A stretch of DNA of 64,000 bases from Bacillota bacterium. GTDB lineage: Bacteria > Bacillota > Clostridia > Peptostreptococcales > Anaerovoracaceae. Shown piece after piece: positions 1,694 through 6,143 of this stretch. Both the position numbers and the translations under genes were made by a program. A model generated the notes under the pieces. That model saw only the letters and a program-made list of their open reading frames with translations. It was not told the origin of the DNA and ran no database searches. The stretch is taken from NCBI GenBank assembly GCA_017626845.1, contig JAGAHX010000035.1:1-64000 (forward strand). Direction: 5' to 3'. Position 1 is the stretch's first letter, and every line of letters begins with the position of its first letter.

Positions 1694-2902
1694 CTATTCT
1701 CTCCAGTGTTCCAATCCGTACTGCGCGAAGACGTCGGGAATGAGCCACTTATCGAAAGCCTTCTCCTCCGGCAGCAGGGACCAGCCGTCCTCCGTCTTTG
1801 CGATACGGGCGAGCTGCATGGACTTCTTGCCCTCCGGCGCTTCGCCGACGGCGTAGGACAGAAGCACGCTGCCGGTCTTCGCATCCTTCAGGGTGACCCG
1901 CAGATCGGCAGTCTGGCGCAGATCCTTCGCCAGCGCATCGGCGTTGTAGACGCCGGCCACCAGCGCTACGGACTCGTAGTCCGCCGCCAGTTTGTCCAGA
2001 TCCAGGCAGTATTTCTCCACGCCCAGCGTGTGTTCGATATCGTCCTCCAGATAGAGCGCGCCCTCGGTGCGGAAGGTCTCGGTCTGGTTGTAGAACACGA
2101 TGTCGTAGCGGCGCTCCAGCTTGCCGCCTTCTTTCAGCAGCAGCGGATACGCATCCACGTCCACATGTTCACCCTTGTCGGACCAGGTGGTCTCCACCAG
2201 GATCCTGGAAGACTCGACCTTGGCCGGTCCGGCGATGGAGGGATAGTCCGGCGCTGCCCCGGCAGGCTCCGCCACCGGCGGCTTCTCGAAGTACTTGCGG
2301 CACATGAACCACTCGTATTCGTTGGGGTCCGTTACGGGAGGATCGCCCTTTTCGGGGAACTTGACGTACTTCATGTCCGCCATGGGGCCTTCCGCCTTGC
2401 AGGAGACGTCCTCCCAGGGGCAGGTGACCACGAACACGTCCATCCAGCCGTAATGCGGCACGGAGAAGTGCGAGGGACCTCTGCCGTAGTGGCGCAGCAT
2501 CGCCTGTACCGCTTCGCCGTGCTTGCTGCGGAATTCTTCCCGCTTTACCTGGGTCAGCCGGCCGCGGAGCATAACGCAGCGGTAGTCGTGGAACACGTCG
2601 CGGTAATAGAATTCCGGATCCGTGTTGTTGTAGAGATAGGCGGCGACGCAGGTGACGATGGGCTCCTTGCGCCACAGATCCACCTTTCTGCCCTCTCTGG
2701 CGGAGTGGATGTAGATCTTGACGCCCTCCTCATCGCAAACTGCGCCGTAACAGAGAGGCACGGAATACGGCAGGCCGTCCTCATCCGTCGCGGACACGAC
2801 CACGAAGGGCGCCGTATCCAGGATGGCGGCGATGAGCTCTTTTTCCTTGACTTCGTGCTCGAACTTGCGCATTTTGACTTTTCTTAAGCCGAATTCACTC
2901 AT
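1694..2902 (-). CDS. Fusion of a PNPOx/NimA-like flavin-binding domain to a TerD-like domain
   Basis: Residues about 12-165 read as a pyridoxamine 5'-phosphate oxidase-like FMN split barrel of the NimA (nitroimidazole resistance) branch: APFVVVSATDEDGLPYSVPL, then HSAREGRK and FHDYRCVMLRG. After a linker, residues about 225-402 read as a TerD (tellurite/stress, calcium-binding) domain: VDVDAYPLLL, DIVFYNQTET, DKLAADYESVALVAGVYNA, SVLLSYAV, then a tail with DGWSLLP. TerD is normally a stand-alone cytoplasmic protein of about 190 residues. ATG at 2902 is preceded by AAGGAG. It lies between a TetR gene (11 bp gap) and a flavin oxidase (3 bp gap), which suggests a redox or stress-response operon. 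The TerD call is from pattern alone. Confidence 0.8.
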   Translation of the reverse strand: MSEFGLRKVKMRKFEHEVKEKELIAAILDTAPFVVVSATDEDGLPYSVPLCYGAVCDEEGVKIYIHSAREGRKVDLWRKEPIVTCVAAYLYNNTDPEFYYRDVFHDYRCVMLRGRLTQVKREEFRSKHGEAVQAMLRHYGRGPSHFSVPHYGWMDVFVVTCPWEDVSCKAEGPMADMKYVKFPEKGDPPVTDPNEYEWFMCRKYFEKPPVAEPAGAAPDYPSIAGPAKVESSRILVETTWSDKGEHVDVDAYPLLLKEGGKLERRYDIVFYNQTETFRTEGALYLEDDIEHTLGVEKYCLDLDKLAADYESVALVAGVYNADALAKDLRQTADLRVTLKDAKTGSVLLSYAVGEAPEGKKSMQLARIAKTEDGWSLLPEEKAFDKWLIPDVFAQYGLEHWRE

Positions 2903-2913
2903 GGGGTACTCCT

Positions 2914-3513
2914 TTACTTGCTATCGACCGATTCCTTGCAGAATCCCTTTAAGAACTGCGGTAACAGCTGGGCCGAATACTGGGCCAGCGAATAATTGCC
3001 GCCGGAGATGCACCAGTCGTACATCAGGCCCCGCTCAAAGACGGCGTAGGCCCGGGTGACGTCCAGCGTCGTAAATTCCTCCCGGAACAGCCCCTGCTGC
3101 TGACCCTCGATGACGATCTGCCGCAGCAGCTTGTAGTACATGCGGGTCGGATCCAGCAGGCTGCGTTCGCTGCCGGAGACCAGCTGAGAGGCGAACAGGC
3201 GGCTGAGGATGTCGATGGAGACCGTGTTTTCGATCATCAGGAACAGTTCCTGGTTGATGAACACCAGTTTTTCGATGACCCCTAAAGAGGGGTCCATCGT
3301 CTCCGTCAGCTCCTCGTACTTCTCGTCGAACAGATACGAAAGAGAGGCAGGCAGCGACTCCTTGCTCTCAAAGTAATGATAAAAGGAGCCCTTGGACGTG
3401 CCCGAGGCCTCTACGATGTCATCCACCGTCGTCTTGTCGTAGCCCTGCTCATAAAACAGCTTCCACGCGGCGGAAACGATCTTCCCTTTTGTATTATTCT
3501 GCGTTCTTTTCAA
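2914..3513 (-). CDS. TetR/AcrR-family transcriptional regulator
   Basis: The N-terminal TetR helix-turn-helix is clear: IVSAAWKLFYEQGYDKTTVDDIVEASGTSKGSFYHYF split over residues about 12-48. The remaining 150 residues are a helical ligand-binding domain with no assignable ligand. The start is TTG at 3513: an in-frame stop lies two codons upstream and no ATG precedes the HTH. The nearest SD-like sequence (AAGGAC) is rather far upstream, so translation initiation may be weak. It is the first gene of the operon with the PNPOx-TerD fusion and the FAD oxidase and probably regulates them. Confidence 0.88.
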   Translation of the reverse strand: MKRTQNNTKGKIVSAAWKLFYEQGYDKTTVDDIVEASGTSKGSFYHYFESKESLPASLSYLFDEKYEELTETMDPSLGVIEKLVFINQELFLMIENTVSIDILSRLFASQLVSGSERSLLDPTRMYYKLLRQIVIEGQQQGLFREEFTTLDVTRAYAVFERGLMYDWCISGGNYSLAQYSAQLLPQFLKGFCKESVDSK

Positions 3514-3549
3514 GGTTTATTTTTTCGTCCTTTTTTCAGTCTATAATTT

Positions 3550-3578
3550 AGTTTAACAATTAAATATTGAATTTTCAA
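3550..3578 (-). promoter_or_regulatory. Putative promoter of the TetR / PNPOx-TerD / FAD oxidase operon
   Basis: On the minus strand TTGAAA (3578-3573) is separated by 17 bases from TAAACT (3555-3550). The region is A+T-rich and carries TTGAAAAT-like repeats that could belong to an operator. This is the best match in the gap, not a proven start site. Confidence 0.4.
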
Positions 3579-3656
3579 CCATTTTCAAAATTCAAGACCG
3601 CAGAATTCTAATTTTCAGTCTAAACTTTATTCCGTATTCCATTCTGGTTTTTGCCG

Positions 3657-3665
3657 TGCTACAAT
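3657..3665 (+). promoter_or_regulatory. Putative extended -10 promoter of the cyclodeaminase-like gene
   Basis: TGCTACAAT has the TGn extension next to a good -10 (TACAAT, 3660-3665). Transcription from here would carry the palindromic repeat at 3673-3735 in the 5' leader, about 100 bases before the ATG at 3770. Confidence 0.4.
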
Positions 3666-3672
3666 GCAGCAT

Positions 3673-3735
3673 GTCCCTTCGACAAGCTCAGGGACCGCGG
3701 CGGACGCTGAGACGGACGCTGAGCCCGTCGAAGCG
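3673..3735. repeat. REP-like palindromic intergenic repeat
   Basis: The arms CCCTTCGACAAGCTCAGGG (from 3675) and GCTGAGCCCGTCGAAGCG (to 3734) are imperfect inverted copies. The left arm alone can form GTCCCT...AGGGAC. Between them CGGACGCTGAG is repeated in tandem (3701-3711 and 3713-3723). Sequences of the type CTTCGACAAGCTCAGG recur between genes in many unrelated bacteria. It sits in the leader of the gene at 3770. Confidence 0.7.
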
Positions 3736-3769
3736 TCAATTCATTTTATAACAGTAAAGGAAGACCATC

Positions 3770-4876
3770 ATGTTTAAACTCAACACCTACATCGAACCCG
3801 ATTTCACCCAGAAGTTTCTCGCGGAGGCACCGGACTGCACGCTGGTAAGAGCGCCCCACGCAAAGGCCGCGCCGAAAGGCTTCCACGCTACCTCCATCTA
3901 CCCGGAATACTTCAAGGTGAACGGCGAATGGCATCTGGCCAGGGACACCCGCATGGACGCCGTGGCGGTCTGGCGGGACGGGGAGATCCAGGTCGTTGAA
4001 TTCCGCAATATCAAAGAGAACGATCTCGTGGTCACAGGGCGCAGCGAGGACGGCAGCGAAGGCATCTACGTGCACGCTGCATGCTTTACCAGCGACGAAG
4101 AAGAAAGCGCCGAAAACGTGTTTTCCTTCCGCCGCAGCCGCAACCGGGAGACCAGTTTTACCTACGATTACGAGCGCTTGGTGAATCTGCTGAAATACGA
4201 AAAAGAACACGGCGGCTACGTGGTCTGGGTGCTCGGCCCAGCCTGCAGCTTCGACGTAACGGCACGGGAGATCATGTCCAGGCTCATCGCCGAAGGCTAC
4301 TGCCAGGCGCTGCTGGCCGGCAATGCGCTTGCCACCCACGACCTGGAGGGTGCCTATCTGGGCACAGCTCTGGGCTGCGACATCCGCAACCAGAAACTGC
4401 ATCACATGGGCCACTACAACCATCTGGAGACCATCAATGCCATCAACACCTACGGTTCCATCCCCGCCTTCATCAAGGGCGAAGGCATCGACAACGGCAT
4501 CATCTACAGCTGCGTCGCTAATAATGTGCCCTTCGTGCTGAACGGTTCCATCCGGGACGACGGTCCCCTGCCCGAGGTCTACGAGCACGCCTATGAGGGT
4601 CAGGACATGATCCGTTCCCACGTGCGCAAAGCCACGACCGTCATCGGCATGGCCACCATGCTCCACACCATCGCCACCGGCAACATGACGCCGACCTACC
4701 GCGTGCTGAAGGACGGCACGATCCGCCCGGTCTACTTCTACATGGTGGATTCCTCCGACTTCGTCGCCAGCAAGCTGGGCGACCGCGGCAGCCTTTCCGC
4801 CAGATCCATCGTCACGAACGTGCAGGACTTTATGAAGAACGTGGGGAGCGGGCTCGGCCTTTACGAATATCGCTGA
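3770..4876 (+). CDS. Archaeal-type ornithine cyclodeaminase / LOR-SDH-related protein (TIGR00300-like)
   Basis: The sequence matches the TIGR00300 / ArgZ-AgrE C-terminal family, which acts in ornithine and arginine breakdown through an NAD-dependent cyclodeaminase reaction. An N-terminal subdomain (PKGFHATSIYPEYF near 35-48) is followed by a Rossmann-like region with LLAGNALATHDLEGAYLG near 182-199, GHYNHLETINAI, and NNVPFVLNGSIRDDGPLPE near 250-268. At 368 residues it is shorter than many homologues because the first part of the LOR/SDH domain is missing or much reduced. The SD AAGGAAG lies about 7 bases before ATG 3770. Its 3' end overlaps the convergent antiporter gene by 47 bp. The substrate is inferred from family only. 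Confidence 0.8.
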   Translation: MFKLNTYIEPDFTQKFLAEAPDCTLVRAPHAKAAPKGFHATSIYPEYFKVNGEWHLARDTRMDAVAVWRDGEIQVVEFRNIKENDLVVTGRSEDGSEGIYVHAACFTSDEEESAENVFSFRRSRNRETSFTYDYERLVNLLKYEKEHGGYVVWVLGPACSFDVTAREIMSRLIAEGYCQALLAGNALATHDLEGAYLGTALGCDIRNQKLHHMGHYNHLETINAINTYGSIPAFIKGEGIDNGIIYSCVANNVPFVLNGSIRDDGPLPEVYEHAYEGQDMIRSHVRKATTVIGMATMLHTIATGNMTPTYRVLKDGTIRPVYFYMVDSSDFVASKLGDRGSLSARSIVTNVQDFMKNVGSGLGLYEYR

Positions 4877-6143
4877 ACAGGTGCCAGAGAGGCAGTAAAA
4901 AGAGATAAAACGCAAGAAGAATGGACAGGTCCGGGGCTGCGATCGTGGAGAGCACGCTCGCCGCGCCGACGGACCAGGGCCAATATGCACAGGTAACGAT
5001 AGCGGAGTCTTCCAGAGCAAGGGCGGCTTCGCTTTTTGTTTGGTAAAGATCGCCGCACAGTTCGTGGGTGAGCACGACGTTCAGCGTCTGGTTGCAGGAG
5101 ACGACGGAGGTGACGAGGGCGGTCAGATAACTTGCCCCGAAGGGAACGGTCTTTCCCGACAAGCGGTGAACCAAAGATCGAAGGCCGTCCAGCAGGTGCG
5201 TCCCGTGGAAGATCCCCGAGAACGCGGATACGAACGTAAAGATGAGCGCGATGCGCCGCATGGACAGGATGCCGCCGCCGTTCAGGACTGTGGAAAGCGA
5301 AGGGTCGGCCGTCCGGTACCCGCGCCACAGCAGCGGAAGCAGTTCCTGCGGTTCCATATGCTGCAGCAGCATCGTCAGAACGGCCGCGATCAGCATGCTG
5401 CAGCCCATCGTCAGGCGCATGTTCTTCTTCAGCGCCGCCAGCGCCAGCAGGACTGCCGCAGGCAGGACGCACAGCGGGGACAGCACGAATTCCCGGGAGA
5501 ACAGGCCCCGCAGATCCGGCACGCTGCCGCCGTGATGCGCGGACAGACCCAGCGCCAGATAGACCAGGCAGCTGGTGAAAAACGGAACGATGCAGCTCCT
5601 CGCCATATTGCGGATATTGTCGTAGATGTCCGTCTCCGTCAGACCGCTCACCAGCAGCGCGCTGGAGGACACCGACGACATGCGGTCGCCGAAATAGCAG
5701 CCGGAAAGCACCGCGCCGCCGGTCAGAACGGGGCTCACATCCATCGCGGAGGCCATAGCCATGCTGATGCCCCCCATCGTCGCGGCGGTCCCCATGGCCG
5801 TCCCGGTCAGGAAGGAGATAAGGCTGCACAGCACAAAGGCCATCATCAGAAAGATGGAAGGCCGGATCAGGCCCGTCGCCGCGGTCACGACGAAGGGAAT
5901 GGTGCCCGACGCACGCCAGCTGGCCGTCAGCATGCCGATAAATACGAAATTCAGGAAGATCAAGCGGTTGCGCCAGATGCCGTCCCGGCACATGCGCAGC
6001 AGCTGCGTCCACGTGTGCCCTTCCCGCCTGCCGTACAGCAAAAACAGCACGAGCCCCACCGTGAGGGCATACGCAGTAGACCGTCCCATGATGACGCACA
6101 GCAGCAGCGCCGCGCTGAATCCTGCAAAACAAAGATATGCCAT
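4830..6143 (-). CDS. NhaC-family Na+/H+ antiporter-like membrane transporter
   Basis: A 437-residue polytopic membrane protein with about 11-12 hydrophobic segments. Family marks include SFLTGTAMGTAATMGGISMAM near 110-130 and SGCYFGDRMSSVSSSALL near 148-165, typical of NhaC antiporters, some of which exchange amino acids or organic acids with sodium or protons. It is slightly short for NhaC (usually 450-490). No SD lies before the ATG at 6143; instead a terminator hairpin ends five bases upstream, so either expression depends on read-through from the aminotransferase gene or the start is elsewhere. Its 3' end overlaps the convergent cyclodeaminase-like gene, a neighbour that could share a substrate. 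Confidence 0.82.
   Translation of the reverse strand: MAYLCFAGFSAALLLCVIMGRSTAYALTVGLVLFLLYGRREGHTWTQLLRMCRDGIWRNRLIFLNFVFIGMLTASWRASGTIPFVVTAATGLIRPSIFLMMAFVLCSLISFLTGTAMGTAATMGGISMAMASAMDVSPVLTGGAVLSGCYFGDRMSSVSSSALLVSGLTETDIYDNIRNMARSCIVPFFTSCLVYLALGLSAHHGGSVPDLRGLFSREFVLSPLCVLPAAVLLALAALKKNMRLTMGCSMLIAAVLTMLLQHMEPQELLPLLWRGYRTADPSLSTVLNGGGILSMRRIALIFTFVSAFSGIFHGTHLLDGLRSLVHRLSGKTVPFGASYLTALVTSVVSCNQTLNVVLTHELCGDLYQTKSEAALALEDSAIVTCAYWPWSVGAASVLSTIAAPDLSILLAFYLFLLPLWHLFSDIRKGRARSPRSS

Follow-up and report, generated by a model that had tools for sequence, protein, structure and literature searches.

The window analysed here is a stretch of 64,000 nucleotides, which begins at the start of a contig (C28) of a 2.28 Mb draft genome in 82 contigs. 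Near its beginning, on the minus strand, an open reading frame of 402 residues (P0001, 1694-2902) starts with ATG, is preceded by a ribosome binding site of the AAAGGAG type and encodes an N-terminal Nim-type split barrel fused to a C-terminal TerD domain. It is followed directly, on the same strand, by the gene of a GlcD-type FAD-linked oxidase (179-1690) and preceded by that of a TetR-family regulator with a TetR_N domain (2914-3513), the first gene of a putative operon; the place and neighbours are those given by the initial annotation. Divergent from the TetR gene, on the opposite strand, lies an ornithine cyclodeaminase-like gene (3770-4876), which matches the model of stand-alone, putative nickel-pincer-nucleotide ornithine cyclodeaminases (NF052526) with 566.9 bits for a cut-off of 440 and is overlapped tail to tail by an NhaC/ArcD-type transporter gene (4830-6143). 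The intergenic region between the two divergent genes (3514-3769), in which short blocks are kept in four genomes, is a candidate promoter/operator, where TetR might bind. A REP-like palindromic repeat (cttcgacgggctcag ... ctgagcttgtcgaag) is also found there, at 3660-3740, where genome G001 carries a different repeated element.

Both halves of the fusion were recognised by Pfam. Pyridox_ox_2 (PF12900) matched residues 22-137 (E 1.5e-11, 44.9 bits for a cut-off of 27) and TerD (PF02342) matched residues 230-376 (E 1.7e-18, 67.2 bits for a cut-off of 25.3), leaving the first 18 positions of the TerD profile uncovered. On the minus strand, the split-barrel domain corresponds to residues 11-175 (2378-2872) and the TerD domain to residues 230-402 (1697-2215), while the linker of residues 176-229 (2216-2377) shows the lowest conservation when distant members are compared. 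Sequence searches against solved structures returned for the N half 2fg9, a putative 5-nitroimidazole resistance protein (E 3.2e-6), and for the C half the TerD structure 2kxt (E 0.0015). Both Pfam domains were matched in 12 of 12 full-length fusions. The reading of one 402-residue chain as two domains, like the calcium-binding TerD assignment and the neighbourhood, is more robust than was initially claimed. The fusion is a new domain architecture built from two known families. No work joining TerD with PNPOx or pyridoxamine 5-phosphate oxidase was found in the papers searched; a 2012 survey of Ter domains may mention the architecture.

The AlphaFold2 model of the fusion, calculated from an alignment of 71 rows, has a mean pLDDT of 92.9 and a pTM of 0.88, and was used in place of an earlier, poor model obtained from 8 rows (pLDDT 68.8). 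It presents the split barrel and the TerD beta-sandwich that had been expected of such a prediction. Residues 230-400 superpose on the TerD proteins 3ibz (Z 18.5, rmsd 3.0, 167 aligned residues) and 2kxt (Z 14.5, 168 residues), and residues 13-187 on the Nim-type barrel 2fg9 (Z 14.6, rmsd 3.5, 146 aligned residues) and on other flavin/heme split barrels, namely 4ybn (Z 14.3), NohD (Z 13.4), DrNimA (Z 12.8) and Anf3 (6rk0, Z 12.5). The top-ranked chain, 9a6r_B (Z 24.0), was given no weight, as it belongs to an integrative model. The term NimA-like, used in the initial annotation, is appropriate at the level of fold and superfamily, considering the 2fg9 superposition and the PF12900 match, and does not extend to membership of the Nim family proper. 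The N half scored 28 bits with the NimABCDEF model (NF000261), whose equivalog cut-off is 260, and, judged by its sequence, it is not a NimA-F equivalog.

We compared the cofactor site of the barrel in the 12 fusions and in 29 chosen single-domain barrels. Residues Tyr46, Gly53, His66, Gly71 and Lys169 are present in all the fusions and all the single barrels of the alignment, and Pro49 in 12/12 and 28/29, respectively. Lys73, of a G-x-K motif, is kept in 10 of the 12 fusions, the two others having an isoleucine. His66 (2705-2707, minus strand) aligns with the proximal heme-ligand histidine of Nim/Anf3 proteins. In the sequence alignment it matches residue His69 of the 2fg9 chain, which would be His50 of BtNimB once a 19-residue tag is removed, and BtNimB His50 is equated with CdNimB His55, DrNimA His71 and the Anf3 heme ligand His70 in PMC10338468. 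That source also reports that the H55A substitution of C. difficile NimB abolishes heme-dependent metronidazole resistance. The heme-ligand histidine of Nim/Anf3 heme flavoproteins is thus, by alignment, in place in all the fusions. Nevertheless, ferrochelatase was not found in any of the 12 genomes tested. Heme would then have to be acquired from the surroundings or obtained in a different way, and the case for heme in this reading is the weaker for it. The fusions have additional invariant residues that are absent from most single barrels: Arg101, His105-Asp106, Arg108, Arg141, Val148-Pro-His-Tyr151, Cys161 and Glu171, of which His105, Asp106, Arg108 and Cys161 are present in a few single barrels too.

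For the TerD half, the reference was KP-TerD, whose two calcium sites are given, in PMC8779313, as residues 40, 41, 42, 78, 79 and 89 (Ca1) and residues 29, 82, 84 and 88 (Ca2). By the 2kxt alignment and the MAFFT columns, Ca1 of KP-TerD would correspond to Asp248, Val249, Asp250, Asp287, Asp288 and Glu296 of the fusion. The putative site is thus made of an Asp248-x-Asp250 first half (2153-2161, KP-TerD Asp40/Asp42), an Asp287-Asp288 pair (2039-2044, KP-TerD Asp78/Asn79) and Glu296 (2015-2017, KP-TerD Glu89), all encoded on the minus strand, the loop preceding Glu296 being two residues short. The register of the Asp-Asp pair differs by one residue between phmmer and MAFFT, and the MAFFT register was favoured because distant fusions have G-D-D where canonical TerD has G-D-N. 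The five acidic residues of Ca1 are present in 12/12 fusions. At the position of KP-TerD Asn79, all 12 fusions have an aspartate, whereas the single TerD rows have asparagine (29/30) or serine (1/30). The situation of Ca2 is different: at the position of KP-TerD Asp88, an aspartate occurs in all but one of the 30 single TerD rows (29) and in none of the 12 fusions, and the loop of this region has 10 residues in 11/12 fusions compared to 12 residues in 29/30 single TerD. The Ca2 site is, as far as aligned residues tell, lost in the fusions and, with the acidic residues of Ca1 kept, binding of calcium at one site is predicted. The C half also has invariants of its own in all the fusions, Arg264-Arg265-Tyr266, Trp386 and a terminal W-x-E. 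The assignment of this half to the calcium-binding TerD family, proposed initially, is borne out by the PF02342 score, the 3ibz superposition and the aligned Ca1 residues. The outcomes set beforehand as speaking against the two-domain reading did not occur: the N half has its conserved cofactor-site residues, and the C half scores as TerD.

The 12 full-length copies are distributed over 10 genomes and three genera of one family (G000 and G007 with two copies each, and G001, G002, G004, G005, G187, G155, G097 and G248). A further copy, in G003, comprises the first 170 residues and is cut by the end of the contig. In its own genus the fusion is present in 7 of 8 genomes, counting this cut copy. 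In draws of genomes that overlap one another, it was found in 7/61 relatives, 11/292 genomes of the family, 4/325 of the order, where the fifth match was a single barrel, and 1/391 of the class; in 398 genomes of the phylum, the source genome was the sole match at E<=1e-25. These absences are soft, owing to the incompleteness of metagenome-assembled genomes. No record covering 80% of the fusion was found among plasmids (72,556 records) or phages (50,697 records), and of 75 stretches of viral contigs that fitted a pattern, none was confirmed. The closest named records are the Bacillota/Clostridia MAGs RUG11894, RGIG1565, RGIG7540 and RUI514, two of which come from goat abomasum and buffalo omasum, and the carrier lineage is one of gut, rumen-type Clostridia. 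An assembly artefact or a chance in-frame joining is ruled out by the number of full-length copies, genomes and genera. Read-through into the FAD oxidase, which is in the same frame, is also ruled out, since four genomes have TAG and one has TAA as the stop codon, and the next start follows after 0-6 bases. The in-frame TAG inside Nim-like matches was read, from the match positions, as the stop codon that immediately precedes the start.

The initial annotation placed this TerD outside a ter operon, and the carrier genomes agree, with no other TerD found in them. Stand-alone TerD was not found in the full-length carriers, where the number of TerD matches equals that of fusions; of the two TerD matches of the source genome, both in fusion-size open reading frames, one is the window gene and the other its paralogue (L037), with 49% identity. 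Some fusion-free members of the family have canonical TerD gene clusters, with best matches of 230-300 bits compared to 42-88 for the fusions. Divergent stand-alone TerD proteins of the same family (L070, L049 and L072) stand apart from canonical TerD (SH-aLRT 90, long branches). TelA is present in 2 of 10 carriers, on contigs other than that of the fusion. TerC was found in none of 12 genomes, which tells little, since the two genomes tested that do have TerD clusters gave no TerC either. The fusion does not have the setting of a ter operon, i.e. a TerD gene beside TerC/TelA and sister TerD genes.

In quick maximum-likelihood trees, unrooted and built from hand-chosen rows, the 12 fusions lie on one side of a single branch, both for the N half (SH-aLRT 97, against 29 single barrels) and for the C half (SH-aLRT 100, against 30 single TerD rows). 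Within the sampled rows, the fusions appear as one family of one origin. The single barrels nearest to the N half, L146 (G680) and L085 and L147 (both G400), belong to two genomes that fall in other families of the class, and share the HDYR motif with the fusions. The dN/dS ratio, against three members of the genus, is 0.03-0.22 in both halves, which are under purifying selection. The four most distant members are 41-42% identical to the window protein in the N half and 23-31% in the C half. The second paralogues (5688-6872 in L037 and 5010-6194 in L038) are the two copies in which the lysine of G-x-K is replaced. They group together in the N tree and not in the C tree, in which L037 joins the window type; its identity to the window protein is 56% in the C half and 43% in the N half. 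These discordant trees, together with a C half closer to the window copy, suggest a past exchange between paralogues. Directly downstream of the second paralogue in the source genome, an open reading frame of 103 residues (5366-5674 in L037) has no Pfam match.

In G000, G005, G001, G002 and G004, the genes of TetR, the fusion and the FAD oxidase follow one another in this order on the same strand. Of the seven fusion-bearing genomes of the genus, six have the TetR gene next to the fusion and five have the oxidase 3' of it, at a distance of 0-6 bases (in G004 the oxidase is cut by the contig end). In G007, TetR and fusion are followed by a long unrelated open reading frame; in G003, an NhaC-type gene lies upstream, and neither TetR nor cyclodeaminase was found by tblastn. 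Outside the genus, the neighbours are MsrA, upstream (G187), an overlapping DJ-1/PfpI gene (G155), an HTH/zinc-ribbon gene (G097) and an amidohydrolase on the other strand (G248). Beyond the genus, the neighbours thus differ and have a redox flavour, with no conserved system.

We propose, with a probability of about one half, that the fusion is a flavin reductase, perhaps a flavin/heme one, which is under TetR control, carries a TerD module with one calcium and serves against electrophile, nitro or redox stress. The product would be a soluble protein of two modules. Its N half would be a flavoprotein of the Nim split-barrel type, presumably dimeric and possibly with heme on His66, that would reduce a small electrophilic or oxidised compound, such as a nitro compound, a quinone or an N-oxide. 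The C half, a TerD with one of the two calcium sites, would most likely tether, assemble or tune the enzyme. The upstream TetR-family repressor would switch the operon on when an inducer, a toxic or oxidised compound or its metabolite, appears, and in the genus of the source genome the FAD-dependent hydroxyacid-type oxidase would be produced together with the fusion. The binding of cofactors, the substrate, the way electrons flow, the control by TetR and what calcium does are all inferred. The proposal draws on the Pfam matches of both halves in 12/12 fusions, the confident model, the kept cofactor-site and Ca1 residues, the purifying selection and the gene order of the genus. MsrA and DJ-1/PfpI beside distant members, in one case each, favour a reductase too, while the variable neighbours outside the genus, the undetected ferrochelatase and the isoleucine at position 73 in 2 of 12 copies speak against it. 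The redox or xenobiotic-detoxifying stress role suggested by the initial annotation is plausible, as a proposal. In the proteomics study PMC6262375, metronidazole raises the synthesis of TerD1 and TerD4, two of the five TerD paralogues of C. difficile; this response and the fusion both fit a role of TerD beside reductive detoxification, and neither is proof of it.

The reductase has to be weighed against a barrel that would not be an enzyme. The solved relatives 4ybn and 5bnc are named merely as heme/flavin binding proteins, and the N half might be a flavin- or heme-binding sensor or carrier, with the TerD half as a stress-signalling effector, as is thought for ter systems. As the only TerD found in its carriers, the fusion may carry the whole TerD function, and the C half has invariants of its own (RRY, Trp386 and W-x-E). 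We consider this doubtful, although the most credible of the alternatives, because conservation is higher in the N half, as would be expected of an active site, and no downstream partner genes are conserved. The lower conservation of the C half could also be taken, together with the loss of the second calcium site, as the sign of an inert add-on, serving stability or dimerisation of an ordinary Nim-like reductase. This is unlikely, considering that the acidic residues of Ca1 and the RRY and W-x-E motifs are kept in all 12 copies and that the full fusion is maintained in three genera, where the only shorter copy stops with its contig.

A different chemistry would be the making or breaking of N-O or N-N bonds, of the piperazate-synthase or N-hydroxylamine-dehydratase type, in which case the role would be metabolic and not detoxifying. 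The heme enzymes NohD, PipS and KtzT are among the structural matches, and the ornithine cyclodeaminase-like neighbour in the genus indicates amino-acid chemistry nearby. However, Nim-type 2fg9 matches as well or better (Z 14.6 compared to 13.4 for NohD), the cyclodeaminase-like gene lies on the other strand without being conserved outside the genus, and no ferrochelatase was found in 12/12 genomes; we regard such an activity as very improbable. Returning to the reductase, a stronger form of the proposal is that Ca1 sets the activity or the assembly of the barrel and that, in the manner of a Rosetta stone, the TerD proteins that ter operons encode as separate chains have Nim-type redox enzymes as targets or partners. 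This is distinctly unlikely by our estimate and, if true, would explain the induction of TerD by metronidazole indicated for C. difficile.

The TerD domain occurs widely, in systems linked to stress, tellurite and phages, and its biochemical role is unsettled. A fusion that is stable over three genera offers a testable partner for it, an enzyme-type barrel of the class that includes nitroimidazole reductases, in one polypeptide, and a conserved pairing of this kind is a rare clue to the working partner of TerD. With a TerD that is predicted to have Ca1 alone, the contribution of each calcium site could, moreover, be distinguished.

Compared with known systems, the fusion shares with the Nim-type 5-nitroimidazole reductases (BtNim 2fg9, DrNimA 1w3o, CdNimB) the split barrel, the PF12900 match and the residues His66, Gly71 and Lys169, but it differs from them in the low NimABCDEF score, the extra HDYR, VPHY and Cys161 signature and the C-terminal TerD. 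With the heme-flavin proteins Anf3 and MSMEG_4975, it has in common the barrel (6rk0 and 4ybn) and a histidine that aligns with the heme ligand, whereas the TerD half is additional and its carrier genomes are without a detected ferrochelatase. The single-domain HDYR barrels of other Clostridia, the nearest relatives of the N half, carry the same motif in 178-211 residues, without a TerD half. Finally, the fusion resembles the TerD/YceC-type tellurite and stress proteins (KP-TerD 2kxt, SCO 3ibz) in its beta-sandwich, aligned Ca1 ligands and PF02342 match, and departs from them in the lost Ca2 ligands, a loop shorter by two residues and the attached enzyme-type barrel; nor was any other TerD found in the genome.
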